Source: Candidatus Methylomirabilis sp.
GTDB lineage: Bacteria > DYJV01
Assembly (NCBI GenBank): GCA_020722945.1
Contig: DYJV01000037.1
Span: 1 to 23,251 of the forward strand
Reading direction: 5' to 3'
DNA length: 23,251 bases
Shown here: positions 5,382 through 22,980 of the stretch, in pieces
How the letters are laid out: each line of letters opens with the position of its first letter
How positions within the stretch are numbered: position 1 is the first letter of the stretch
The notes under the pieces: generated by a model
The model's input: the letters and a program-made list of their open reading frames with translations, nothing else
Told to the model about the DNA's origin: nothing
Database searches by the model: none
Position numbers and translations under genes: made by a program

Positions 5382-5975
5382 CTACCCTTTCCTTGATAAA
5401 AATCCGAGTGTGCTCTCACTCCACTGAATATTTTTAAAACCAACATTTGTAAGTCTTCTCTTTACACCTGAAGGGATATCTTTCCCACTTTTACTACCCG
5501 GTTTACCGGTATAGTGAAAGAAGTATCCACCCTTTTTCAATATATTGTATATGTGAGAGTAAAATATCTCTGAATAAAGATTTCCTGCTCTTTTTAATCT
5601 TGGCGGATCATGAAAAACCACATCAAAGAAATATGCTGGGAAAGTATCAACAATCTCCTCTGCATTAGCAAGGATAATAGAGATGTTCTCTTTAGTAAAA
5701 AGTTCATCAGAGGGAGTATTATCTTTTGCTATTGACAAAACAGCAGGATCATTTTCAATAGTAAAGACTTTTTTTACTACCTTTGATGCAAAAATAGCAT
5801 TATAACCTAACCCTGTGCATATATCTAAAACTATGTGAGTAGGTTTTAGTGGAATCATGCTAACTTTATCATATGCATCTTCTAAAGGAGTTTTCCTACT
5901 TGTCTGATGCATTCTGATACCGTCAATTTCTATGGTTCCATCTATCAGCTTGTAATGGCTGAATCTTTGAAGCAT
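5382..5975 (-). CDS. Class I SAM-dependent methyltransferase of an archaeal-type family
   Basis: A 197-residue protein with the Rossmann methyltransferase core: motif I LDICTGLGYNA (50-60), an acidic motif II residue at about Glu74 (FTIEND), and a motif IV HDPPRL (122-127). The N-terminal IDGTIEIDGIRMHQT (11-25), and later NLYSEIFYSHIYNILKKGG and FFHYTGKPG, closely match what I remember of the predicted archaeal methyltransferase family COG2521. DPP(R/Y/F) loops are typical of enzymes that methylate a nitrogen on nucleobases or glutamine, so an RNA or protein amide target is plausible but unproven. The start ATG overlaps the upstream stop in TAATG. Co-transcribed with a small Cys protein and a kinase-like protein downstream. 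Confidence 0.8.
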   Translation of the reverse strand: MLQRFSHYKLIDGTIEIDGIRMHQTSRKTPLEDAYDKVSMIPLKPTHIVLDICTGLGYNAIFASKVVKKVFTIENDPAVLSIAKDNTPSDELFTKENISIILANAEEIVDTFPAYFFDVVFHDPPRLKRAGNLYSEIFYSHIYNILKKGGYFFHYTGKPGSKSGKDIPSGVKRRLTNVGFKNIQWSESTLGFLSRKG

Positions 5976-6700
5976 TAGTGGGTGCTGGTTATTTCAGAAT
6001 CAAAAGTGTATTTGAAACCTGTATATATGTAATTCCCTCCGAAAGTCCCTTTATCAACAGAGTAAAGCATTACCAAAGAGAGCTTATTACTAAATAGTAT
6101 TTCATAAGAAAGTGATATATCTTGATTTTTGTCACTTTCAATCAAATAGAAGTTCTCTTTGCTATCAGGTGAGGCAGTGTAATATCTATAAGATAAATCA
6201 AATTTGTCTCCATGGGCAAATAATTTGGTAAAATTAAAGTTATAACCCTTCTCAGAAAAAGCATTATCTTTATATTTTAGGTTGTTTTGGGTATAAAAAT
6301 ATGAGAAATTAGAGACTATATTGTATCCCCAATATTGGTGGAGATTAAAATTATAACCTTTACTCTGTATAGAATCACTCCTTTTGTCAATAGGGATAAT
6401 TTCGGTTTGATCATCTTTCAGGCTTAAAGAGAGAGACGATTGTGGAGTGATAGAGAAAGTGACATTTGGGGAGCTGCTATTCTTCTCGAAATCTATATAT
6501 TTTTTAAATTTATCATTTGTAGATTTATAATTTTTATCTGAAAAAATAGATTGTCCTGTAGTTAAAGAAACAGGGGCTGATGAATAAGTAAGATTAAAAT
6601 CTTGATTGTGTAGAAGATAATCGTTAAAAACATTATCTTCAGCAGAAATATCCAAAGTAAGAGATAAAAGTATAAAAAATAGTAATATAAATCTTCTCAT
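5975..6700 (-). CDS. Predicted exported outer-membrane beta-barrel-like protein
   Basis: About 241 residues from the ATG at 6700. The first 20 residues (MRRFILL..., ending around ISA) form a clear signal peptide. The body is rich in alternating aromatic and polar residues (NFSYFYTQNNL, YNFNFTKLF, FDLSYRYYTAS, YIYTGFKYTF), as in outer-membrane strands, with a near-terminal GFKYTFDSE stretch like a closing strand. I recognise no family. An upstream TTG at 6736 keeps the frame open, but it would bury the signal peptide behind 12 residues and has no ribosome-binding site. First gene of the operon ending at 4565; its stop overlaps the methyltransferase start by one base. Confidence 0.7.
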   Translation of the reverse strand: MRRFILLFFILLSLTLDISAEDNVFNDYLLHNQDFNLTYSSAPVSLTTGQSIFSDKNYKSTNDKFKKYIDFEKNSSSPNVTFSITPQSSLSLSLKDDQTEIIPIDKRSDSIQSKGYNFNLHQYWGYNIVSNFSYFYTQNNLKYKDNAFSEKGYNFNFTKLFAHGDKFDLSYRYYTASPDSKENFYLIESDKNQDISLSYEILFSNKLSLVMLYSVDKGTFGGNYIYTGFKYTFDSEITSTH

Positions 6701-6966
6701 ACTATATGGTGTAGTATATTTTATAAAAAAAATCAATAAAAAAAATGGAGGTAAAGGTATTTTAAAAATAATTGCCGATACAATAATAACTTACTGTTGC
6801 AAAGTGGGAGAAATAGCTAAAAAATGGAGATAAAATCTCTTAAAAAATATTACTTTAAGTATATTTTGATAAAAAATTACAAAAAAATAAAATTTTCAAC
6901 TAATAAATAATTTGTGCAATACTCTTTGGTAATTATCAAAAAATACTATTACAAATGAATTATTCG
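6701..6966. other. Non-coding AT-rich spacer
   Basis: 266 bases with no supported gene on either strand. It should hold the minus-strand promoter of the 6700-4565 operon: a TATACT-like -10 lies close to 6715, but no matching -35 is convincing. It also holds a weak terminator-like hairpin (6827-6839). The GGAGG on the plus strand near 6747 is not followed by an open frame. Confidence 0.5.
6819..6840 (-). terminator. Weak intrinsic terminator after the aldolase operon
   Basis: Read on the minus strand, GAGAT and ATCTC (6839-6827) can pair around a 3-base loop and are followed shortly by a run of six T. The stem is only 5 bp and lies about 130 bases after the aldolase stop, so it is a tentative call. 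Confidence 0.3.
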
Positions 6967-19935: not shown

Positions 19936-20571
19936 TTAGACAGATAAAACAAAATTACATGGAGAAATCATCTTTTTTAATACCTTACCATCTCTCTTTA
20001 CAACTTTACACAAGTTTTGAGAGGCATCAGAATTAATAAAAGGATATATCATAATACCATCGTTTACAAGCTGATCATAAAGCTTTTCAGGATGTTCAAA
20101 GAGTGCTGCAGTATAAATAATCCTGTCAAATCTCCCCATACTATCCCACCCCAAAACCCCGTCATTTACCTTATAAAAAATATTTGAAATATCAAGTCTT
20201 TGGTGAGCCTGCTGTGCATTTTGAGAGAAAATCTCAATAATTTCAACAGTATAAACACTCTTTGAGAGAAAAGCAAGTATTGCTGTCTGAAATCCACTTC
20301 CAGTGCCTATTTCAAGGACTTTATGGTGAGATTCTATCTCAAGCTCCTGCGTCATAAAAGCAACGGTAAAAGGCTGAGATATAGTCTGTCCATACCCTAT
20401 CGGCAATGCAACATTTTTGTAGGAATCAAATATAAGAACATCAGGGACAAATATATGTCTTGGAATATTTCTAAAAGCCTCTAAAACATTCATGTCATAA
20501 ATACCTTTACTCTTAAGCTCTTCTACTAATTTAACTCTCGCTTCAGCAAATGCTTTTAGCCTAACCTTCAC
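19936..20571 (-). CDS. pcm: Protein-L-isoaspartate O-methyltransferase
   Basis: 211 residues, the normal length. It repairs isoaspartyl residues in aged proteins using SAM. The fold and family are clear: VLEAFRNIPRHIFVPD near the start, PIGYGQTISQPFTVAFMTQEL, the SAM-binding motif VLEIGTGSGFQTAIL and YTVEII, then DRIIYTAALFEHPEKL. It overlaps rlmB by 11 bases and is followed, after 66 bases, by the nlpD-like gene, the order seen around rpoS in many proteobacteria. Confidence 0.95.
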   Translation of the reverse strand: MKVRLKAFAEARVKLVEELKSKGIYDMNVLEAFRNIPRHIFVPDVLIFDSYKNVALPIGYGQTISQPFTVAFMTQELEIESHHKVLEIGTGSGFQTAILAFLSKSVYTVEIIEIFSQNAQQAHQRLDISNIFYKVNDGVLGWDSMGRFDRIIYTAALFEHPEKLYDQLVNDGIMIYPFINSDASQNLCKVVKRDGKVLKKMISPCNFVLSV

Positions 20572-21289
20572 GGGTCATCCTTCTTACAATATCGTAAATA
20601 AATATTGCTGCTGAATTTGATGCGTTTAGTGAAGCTATCTTTGAGCCCTTGCCATCAAGCCTTAAAACAAAATCACTATTTTCATTGATCAGATTCCTTA
20701 CACCCTTCTCCTCATTCCCTATTATCAGAGCTATTTTATCAGTAATATCAACATCTGCTAAATTTTGAGAACCTTGTGGCGAAGTTGAGTATATAAAAAA
20801 ATTATTTTTTTTGAGTATTTTGATGACATTAAGGAGGTTTATCTCTTTTATCAAAGGGACCTTGAATATTGCACCTGAAGAAGTTTTGGCACTTGTGTCA
20901 GTAATTTGAACACTTCTATTTTTTGTAATCACAACAGCATCAACACCAAAGAACGCTGCACTTCTCACAATACTGCCAAAATTTTGCTGATCCTGAATCG
21001 AATCAAGGACTAATATGAATACCTTATCGAGGTTTAGAAACTCATCAATAAAGTGGTAAGTAAACTCTGATAAAACAGCCGCTACACCTTGATGGTTCTG
21101 CTCTGGGAATTTTTTGTCAAATAACTTCTTTTCTAAAAACTCAATTTTAGCTTTTGCAGATTTACCTCTCTGTAAAACTATTTTTATCTTTTCGTCTCGT
21201 CTGCCCTCTTGAATAAATAACTTCTCAACATTTACAGAATCTGAATCAAGAGCCTCTAAAACAGTATTGATACCATAAATTGTTTTTAT
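20561..21289 (-). CDS. rlmB: 23S rRNA (guanosine-2'-O)-methyltransferase RlmB (TrmH/SpoU family), non-canonical ATA start
   Basis: About 242 residues, matching the E. coli RlmB length. The C-terminal SPOUT domain carries the family motifs: LVLDSIQDQQNFGSIVRSAA, then LIIGNEEKGVR and SLNASNSAA. The N-terminal substrate-binding domain reads KTIYGINTVLEAL and, later, NHQGVAAVLSEF, so it is intact in frame well upstream of the internal GTG at 20968. Extending upstream in frame, no ATG, GTG or TTG occurs before a TGA. The best start is ATA at 21289-21287: it overlaps the proS stop as TAATA, has AGGA 8 bases upstream, and puts the protein start exactly where the family begins. ATT at 21295 is an alternative. 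A sequence error of ATG to ATA cannot be excluded. Confidence 0.85.
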   Translation of the reverse strand: MKTIYGINTVLEALDSDSVNVEKLFIQEGRRDEKIKIVLQRGKSAKAKIEFLEKKLFDKKFPEQNHQGVAAVLSEFTYHFIDEFLNLDKVFILVLDSIQDQQNFGSIVRSAAFFGVDAVVITKNRSVQITDTSAKTSSGAIFKVPLIKEINLLNVIKILKKNNFFIYSTSPQGSQNLADVDITDKIALIIGNEEKGVRNLINENSDFVLRLDGKGSKIASLNASNSAAIFIYDIVRRMTREG

Positions 21290-22980
21290 TAAAATTTTCC
21301 TATTACCTCATCTATAGATAGTAAAATATTTGTGCCATCTTTTCTATTTTTGAATTCAACTTTACCTTGCTGCAAATTTTTCTTACCAATGGTAACTCTA
21401 TATGGAAAACCAAGTAAATCAGCATCTTTAAATTTAACACCCGCTCTTTCGTCCCTATCATCAAGTAGGACATCAACTCCTCTACTTTTAAGCTCTGTAT
21501 AAATCTTGTCTGTCACTTCCCTTACCTCTGTATCTTTGTAATCAAGTGAGAGAAGATAAAGATCAAATGGTGAAATAGGCTTAGGGAGTATCATACCATC
21601 TTCATCAAAATTCTGCTCTATTGCAGCAGCAGCAGTCCTCCCTATCCCAATACCGTAACACCCCATTATAAAAGGTCTCTGTTTACCATCTTTATCCAAA
21701 AAGAGTGCATTCATCTTTTCAGAGTATTTAACTCCAAGTTTGAAGATATGTCCAACTTCAATCCCTCTAAAAATAGAGATAACACCTTTACCACACTTTG
21801 GACATTTATCACCATTTACAATATTTCTTAAATCAGCAAAATCTATTTTAGCAGCAATATCTTCAAAATTGACATTTTTAAGGTGAAAATTTACTTTGTT
21901 GGCACCAACAACAAAGTTTACCATATTTTTAACTGAAAAATCAGCAATTACACGACATTTTATATTTACAGGACCTATAAAACCTATATCAGAGCCTGTT
22001 GACTCTTTGACAATACTCTCAGATGCAAAGAATATATTGTCCCAACCAAGAAAATTTTTCACTTTTATAAGATTAACCTCAAAATCTCCCCTTATAAGAA
22101 GTGCTACTACATTTTGACCATCTGACAATATTACTGTCTTGACAATACGATCTGGAGATATTTTTAGGAAGGAGGAGAGATCATCAATAGATTTTAGGTC
22201 AGGGGTGTAAACCTCTTCCATACGATATTTTTGAGAATCAATATTTTTTGGATATGAATCAGCAGAAACAGTAGCTTTCTCAACATTTGCTCCATATGAG
22301 CAGCTACTACAACCTGCTATTGCATCCTCTCCATTTTGTGCAAGAACCATAAACTCATGAGAAAAATTCCCACCAATTGCACCAGAATCTGCCTCTACAA
22401 CTTTAAAGTCAAGACCACATCTTGTAAATATATTTACATAAGCCTGATACATCTTTTTGTAACTCAATTCTGCCATCTCTTCACTTGCATCAAAGCTGTA
22501 TCCATCTTTCATTATAAACTCTCTACCCCTCATAACACCAAAACGGGGACGGACTTCATCTCTAAACTTAGTCTGTATTTGATAAAGATTAATAGGAAGC
22601 TGCTTGTAAGATTTGATCTCTCTCCTTACAAGATCAGTAACTACCTCTTCATGGGTAGGTCCTATGCAGAAATCCCTGTTGTTACGGTCTTTTAGTCTAA
22701 GAAGCTCTTTCCCGTAGATATCCCATCGTCCACTCTCTTGCCAAAGCTCAGCAGATACTACTGCAGGCATCAAAATCTCCACTGCACCAGCACTATTCAT
22801 CTCATCTCGGACAATGTTTTCGATCTTTCTTATCATTTTAAGACCAAGGGGGAGATAGTCGTAGATTCCAGCAGCAACTTTCCTTATCATACCTGCTCTA
22901 AGCATAAATTTATGGCTTACAACCTCTGCATCAGATGGATTCTCTTTTAGGGTAGGGATAAAATATTCTGAAAATTTCAT
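21289..22980 (-). CDS. proS: Prolyl-tRNA synthetase, bacterial long type
   Basis: 563 residues, the expected size for the bacterial form with an insertion editing domain. The class II catalytic core shows CIGPTHEE (105-112), motif 2 KFRDEVRPRFGVMRGREFIMKDGYSF (138-163) and motif 3 IMGCYGIGIGRTAAA (438-452). The editing insertion covers about 230-400. Cysteine pairs CSSC (224-227) and CPKC (393-396) bracket it. The C-terminal anticodon-binding domain starts near 460. It charges tRNA-Pro with proline. AGGAG lies 9 bases before the ATG and a good promoter lies further upstream, so it probably leads the operon down to apt. Confidence 0.97.
   Translation of the reverse strand: MKFSEYFIPTLKENPSDAEVVSHKFMLRAGMIRKVAAGIYDYLPLGLKMIRKIENIVRDEMNSAGAVEILMPAVVSAELWQESGRWDIYGKELLRLKDRNNRDFCIGPTHEEVVTDLVRREIKSYKQLPINLYQIQTKFRDEVRPRFGVMRGREFIMKDGYSFDASEEMAELSYKKMYQAYVNIFTRCGLDFKVVEADSGAIGGNFSHEFMVLAQNGEDAIAGCSSCSYGANVEKATVSADSYPKNIDSQKYRMEEVYTPDLKSIDDLSSFLKISPDRIVKTVILSDGQNVVALLIRGDFEVNLIKVKNFLGWDNIFFASESIVKESTGSDIGFIGPVNIKCRVIADFSVKNMVNFVVGANKVNFHLKNVNFEDIAAKIDFADLRNIVNGDKCPKCGKGVISIFRGIEVGHIFKLGVKYSEKMNALFLDKDGKQRPFIMGCYGIGIGRTAAAAIEQNFDEDGMILPKPISPFDLYLLSLDYKDTEVREVTDKIYTELKSRGVDVLLDDRDERAGVKFKDADLLGFPYRVTIGKKNLQQGKVEFKNRKDGTNILLSIDEVIGKF

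Follow-up and report, generated by a model that had tools for sequence, protein, structure and literature searches.

The 23,251-nucleotide stretch of DNA that we analyzed (hereafter, the window) carries, on its minus strand, an rlmB gene with an intact conserved coding frame but without any canonical start codon, and this is what is unusual about the locus. We consider it probable, at roughly 70%, that the intact gene is translated from an AUA at 21289-21287, after termination of the upstream gene proS. More generally, a non-canonical rlmB start at or very near this ATA is well supported by the sequence. Read from the ATA, rlmB spans 20561..21289 and encodes 242 amino acids. The first base of the ATA is shared with the TAA of proS (21291-21289), yielding a TAATA at 21291-21287 and a 1-nt overlap if the ATA is the start. 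On the same strand, proS (proline--tRNA ligase, 21289..22980; NF006625, 805 bits) lies upstream, and pcm (protein-L-isoaspartate O-methyltransferase, 19936..20571; NF001453, 213 bits) overlaps the rlmB stop. An Rfam search of the window returned nothing.

The rlmB frame runs uninterrupted from 21307 to 20561, after a TGA at 21310-21308. The codons ahead of the conserved IYGIN are GGT AAT AGG AAA ATT TTA ATA AAA ACA, and this codon-by-codon reading bears out the claim of a preliminary description of this DNA that no ATG, GTG, or TTG occurs between the TGA and the sequence KTIYGIN. The earliest such codon in the frame is a GTG at 20968 (20966..20968), from which an annotation restricted to canonical starts would give 135 residues, as had also been anticipated. 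The same description placed the RlmB N-terminal domain in frame upstream of this GTG, adding 107 residues, and the profiles agree: The 242-residue protein scored 202 bits against TIGR00186, above the curated cut-off of 160.15, whereas the 135-residue form scored 129 bits, below it. In the 248-residue open frame, Pfam located SpoU_sub_bind at residues 10-84 (59 bits) and SpoU_methylase at 97-238 (120 bits). The former, the substrate-binding domain, falls in the 107-residue extension and is missing from the short form, and the SpoU_methylase match also starts upstream of the GTG. Since the GTG sits within the sequence NFGSIVR, a product initiated there would lack what we take to be the N-F-G half of SPOUT motif 1.

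The 107-residue extension is genuinely protein-coding. The part of rlmB upstream of the GTG had a strongly positive coding score (58), and it is conserved in the RlmB of the sole other genome in the order (G001), which is 44% identical overall; a contig search for closer rlmB relatives found one distant locus and none nearer than this 44%. Within the N-terminal part, 49 of 105 aligned residues (47%) are identical to the G001 protein, compared to 53 of 132 (40%) in the remainder, which argues for purifying selection on the extension. Judged by its sequence, the frame encodes a complete RlmB, the 23S rRNA (guanosine2251-2′-O)-methyltransferase, with methylation of G2251 as its predicted activity. 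It matches the SPOUT 23S rRNA Gm2251 methyltransferases of TIGR00186 in domains, length, and profile score, and the start codon is its sole unusual feature.

The presence of an ATA near the proS stop is in itself not unusual, because at least one of ATT, ATA, ATC, and CTG is expected in 61% of random nine-codon stretches in this genome, and TA follows the stop-A at 13% of its TAA/TGA stops. To choose among the near-cognate codons at this site, we counted the overlap geometry over 610 close same-strand gene pairs of the genome. ATG starts occurred at an overlap of 1 nt in 29 cases, of 4 nt in 41 cases, and of 7 nt in only 2 cases. The ATA has a 1-nt overlap with proS, whereas a second in-frame near-cognate codon that the preliminary description had left out, an ATT at 21295-21293, would overlap proS by 7 nt, so that the geometry favors ATA over ATT by about ten to one.

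Initiation at this AUU, two codons upstream of the ATA and with GAGGU as the Shine-Dalgarno sequence, in the manner of infC and pcnB of Escherichia coli, is the best-surviving alternative, although we regard it as unlikely. The GAGGT (21305..21309) lies 9 nt before the ATT and forms a duplex of −7.4 kcal/mol, but this spacing exceeds the usual one. AUU is also documented as a rare start in PMC13398362 and, for E. coli pcnB, by citation in PMC13009471. In the G001 RlmB, IYG is preceded by four residues, one more than in the ATA form (three) and one fewer than in the ATT form (five). The rlmB start in G001, this one relative with 44% identity, is an ATG that differs in position from the ATA (ATG GAT AAA ATA ATT TAT GGA, with a 13-nt overlap with proS); because it aligns with the TTA at 21292, it does not decide between ATA and ATT. 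Against ATT stand, besides the rarity of 7-nt overlaps, the apparent ATA starts of infC and a WecA-like gene in the same genome (see below).

Shine-Dalgarno support at rlmB was weak for ATA and ATT alike. The duplex energy of about −7 kcal/mol, computed with a generic anti-Shine-Dalgarno sequence that may not be that of the host (the genome's own 16S was not found), is near the median of −6.8 kcal/mol for ATG starts in the genome. With this same generic sequence, the best duplex for the ATA (−7.0 kcal/mol) falls on the GAGGT, 15 nt away. The preliminary description had pointed to an AGGA 8 nt before the ATA (21298..21301), and both this motif, a weak candidate by motif match only, and the TAATA overlap were found at the positions it gave.

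Use of ATA in rlmB is made more credible by infC, which in this genome apparently starts at ATA as well. We searched a sample of ~1.1 Mb of the 2.5-Mb genome for coding signal located far upstream of any canonical start, and the clear cases left after sorting were infC, a WecA-like gene, adenine deaminase, a DUF4911 gene, and rlmB. In infC (L073 14136-13543, minus strand, contig 41), no ATG, GTG, or TTG precedes the conserved domain, and the start appears to be an ATA behind a strong Shine-Dalgarno sequence, with a duplex energy of −14.8 kcal/mol (context, CTTCATACAGGAGGTGGTAAA ATA GTTAAAAAA; upstream sequence in shorter form, GGAGGTGGTAAA ATA; with the following codons, ACAGGAGGTGGTAAA ATA GTT AAA AAA). 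For the WecA/MraY-like glycosyltransferase (L044 2752-4383, plus strand), the first canonical start lies 146 codons in, and the upstream sequence (AAAGGGAGTTTAAA ATA) suggests an ATA start. The adenine deaminase gene ade (L091 6867-5203, minus strand; TIGR01178, 615 bits) likely starts at ATC (GGAGGGAACTC ATC), and the DUF4911 gene (L056 15630-15908, plus strand), from which ATG, GTG, and TTG are wholly absent, possibly at ATT (GGGGGTTGTAAAG ATT); this last gene came up in one pass of the search and was absent from the list of the other. The rlmB Shine-Dalgarno duplex is weaker than those of infC, ade (−9.8 kcal/mol), and the WecA-like gene (−8.5 kcal/mol). In G001, infC was looked for and not found, the WecA-like gene had no match, and the search for an adenine deaminase orthologue gave just a 28% identical deaminase with an uninformative start. 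With four or five near-cognate cases among ~1,000 sampled genes and a detection rate of roughly half, near-cognate starts may affect ~1% of the genes in this genome. Gene finders limited to ATG, GTG, and TTG would truncate rlmB and disturb infC, the WecA-like gene, and adenine deaminase.

The TAATA motif itself carried no genome-wide signal. Of 51 close pairs with a stop followed by TA, 16 (31%) had a downstream gene in the matching frame, compared to a background of 38-39% (23 of 60 for stop+TT and 105 of 266 for other contexts) and to 30 of 34 (88%) for stop+TG. We thus rejected TAATA as a general start or coupling signal, and the weight that the preliminary description had placed on the motif as evidence for the start was too high. 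Among the TAATA pairs listed, rlmB was the sole one without a canonical start nearby. The claim of coupling to proS therefore rests on the geometry and on published work on reinitiation, in which 1- and 4-nt overlaps permit reinitiation with a strong dependence on distance (PMC10666635). The stop/start geometry at rlmB is identical to that of the TAATG 1-nt overlap in termination-reinitiation (PMC10666635); the difference is that ATA replaces ATG, so that reinitiation would have to occur at AUA. A TAATG of this kind, to which the ATA had been likened, does occur in the window at 5977-5973, where it fits the open reading frames 5975..6736 and 5382..5975. The proS-rlmB gene order and the presence of an overlap are common to this genome and G001. 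Of the earlier proposal of a rare non-canonical start tuned by coupling, the start holds up, given the conserved N terminus and the ATA of infC, whereas the tuning does not gain from the 31% in-frame fraction of TAATA pairs or from the G001 ATG at a 13-nt overlap.

We propose that a ribosome finishing proS at the UAA would stay on or re-bind the mRNA, that the nearby AGGA would help it at the proS-rlmB junction, and that the initiator tRNA would be placed on the overlapping AUA, giving the 242-residue RlmB at low yield. The use of AUA rather than AUU, termination-reinitiation as the source of ribosomes, the low yield, and a physiological tuning are all steps that we infer. Counting against this scheme, the AGGA on the ATA side is weaker than the Shine-Dalgarno sequences at the other near-cognate starts of this genome. 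In Staphylococcus aureus reporters, AUA gave ~10% of the AUG level, and up to 30% for ccpN (PMC13009471). A low yield would suit an rRNA modification enzyme because, according to PMC11194073, E. coli is little affected by the loss of single rRNA modification enzymes. The word "essential" in the preliminary description was too strong, since E. coli does not require RlmB. If reinitiation at AUA in the TAATA overlap were proven, coupling could stand in for a strong Shine-Dalgarno sequence at a poor start codon. A wider idea, which we regard as speculative and doubtful, is that this little-sampled lineage relies on AUA and other near-cognate codons to start infC, rlmB, the WecA-like gene, ade, and the DUF4911 gene; these genes would respond jointly to the level of IF3, and reinitiation could read a stop-overlapping AUA even where no strong Shine-Dalgarno sequence is present.

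Starts at AUA and AUU have precedents in bacteria, and rlmB is another case, in which the overlap with a stop codon is unusual but plausible. AUA starts were described for infC, ccpN, and citZ of S. aureus (PMC13009471), which resemble rlmB in being AUA starts of conserved bacterial proteins and include infC, the gene that apparently starts at ATA here too. Extended Shine-Dalgarno motifs are stressed for the S. aureus sites, whereas rlmB has the AGGA alone, but sits on an upstream stop codon, and its start is read from sequence. In Borrelia burgdorferi pncA (BBE22), as in rlmB, a near-cognate start overlooked by databases led to a truncated annotation without the needed N terminus; there, the codon is AUU rather than AUA, and genetic and biochemical data as well as a crystal structure support it (PMC13398362).

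A further alternative, which we consider rather improbable, is that the cell has an ATG, the A at 21287 reflecting either an error in the consensus or a polymorphism among strains, so that the coupling would be an ordinary TAATG. TAATG coupling is common in this genome and one base away from TAATA. The assembly, a draft in 184 contigs in which no 16S was detected, is fragmented and probably of metagenomic origin, and we saw in it two likely frameshifted genes (Hpt and pth). However, at least three other sampled genes have near-cognate starts behind good Shine-Dalgarno sequences, so that real use is common enough, and random substitution errors should seldom strike start codons. That the truncated protein from GTG 20968 alone is made, or that rlmB is dying, is very improbable: Although this GTG is the first conventional start, the form initiated there is missing SpoU_sub_bind and the N-F-G of motif 1 and stays below the TIGR00186 cut-off, and the N-terminal part is conserved, with 107 codons free of stops. 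Fusion of ProS to RlmB by −1 ribosomal frameshifting on GGA AAA TTT TAA is scarcely credible. The rlmB frame is −1 relative to proS and, ahead of the proS stop, is open for a few codons. However, AAAATTT does not conform to the X XXY YYZ heptamer pattern (tRNA-Phe would need to re-pair on AUU), the G001 rlmB has its own ATG, and we know of no fused ProS-RlmB.

The genome scan also yielded genes that we sorted out as special cases. An Hpt-domain gene (L063 5979-6311, plus strand) and pth (L121 11847-12317, plus strand; directly after an A run) lacked starts and were set aside as likely frameshifts or assembly errors. A long coding frame at L107 8725-10281 (plus strand) lies directly after an in-frame TGA, with its first canonical start 45 codons in, and had no match in NCBIfam. 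As expected, the scan recovered two known special cases. The first, prfB (RF2; L110 2825-1779, minus strand), carries what appears to be a programmed frameshift site, CTT TGA G, and was set aside as the known RF2 frameshift. The second is a peroxiredoxin (L035 14415-13954, minus strand, and upstream) with an in-frame TGA at the position of the catalytic cysteine (DFTFV-TGA-PTEL); because of this TGA and of a tRNA-Sec in the genome (L055 892-986, minus strand), it is probably a selenoprotein in which TGA is read as selenocysteine.
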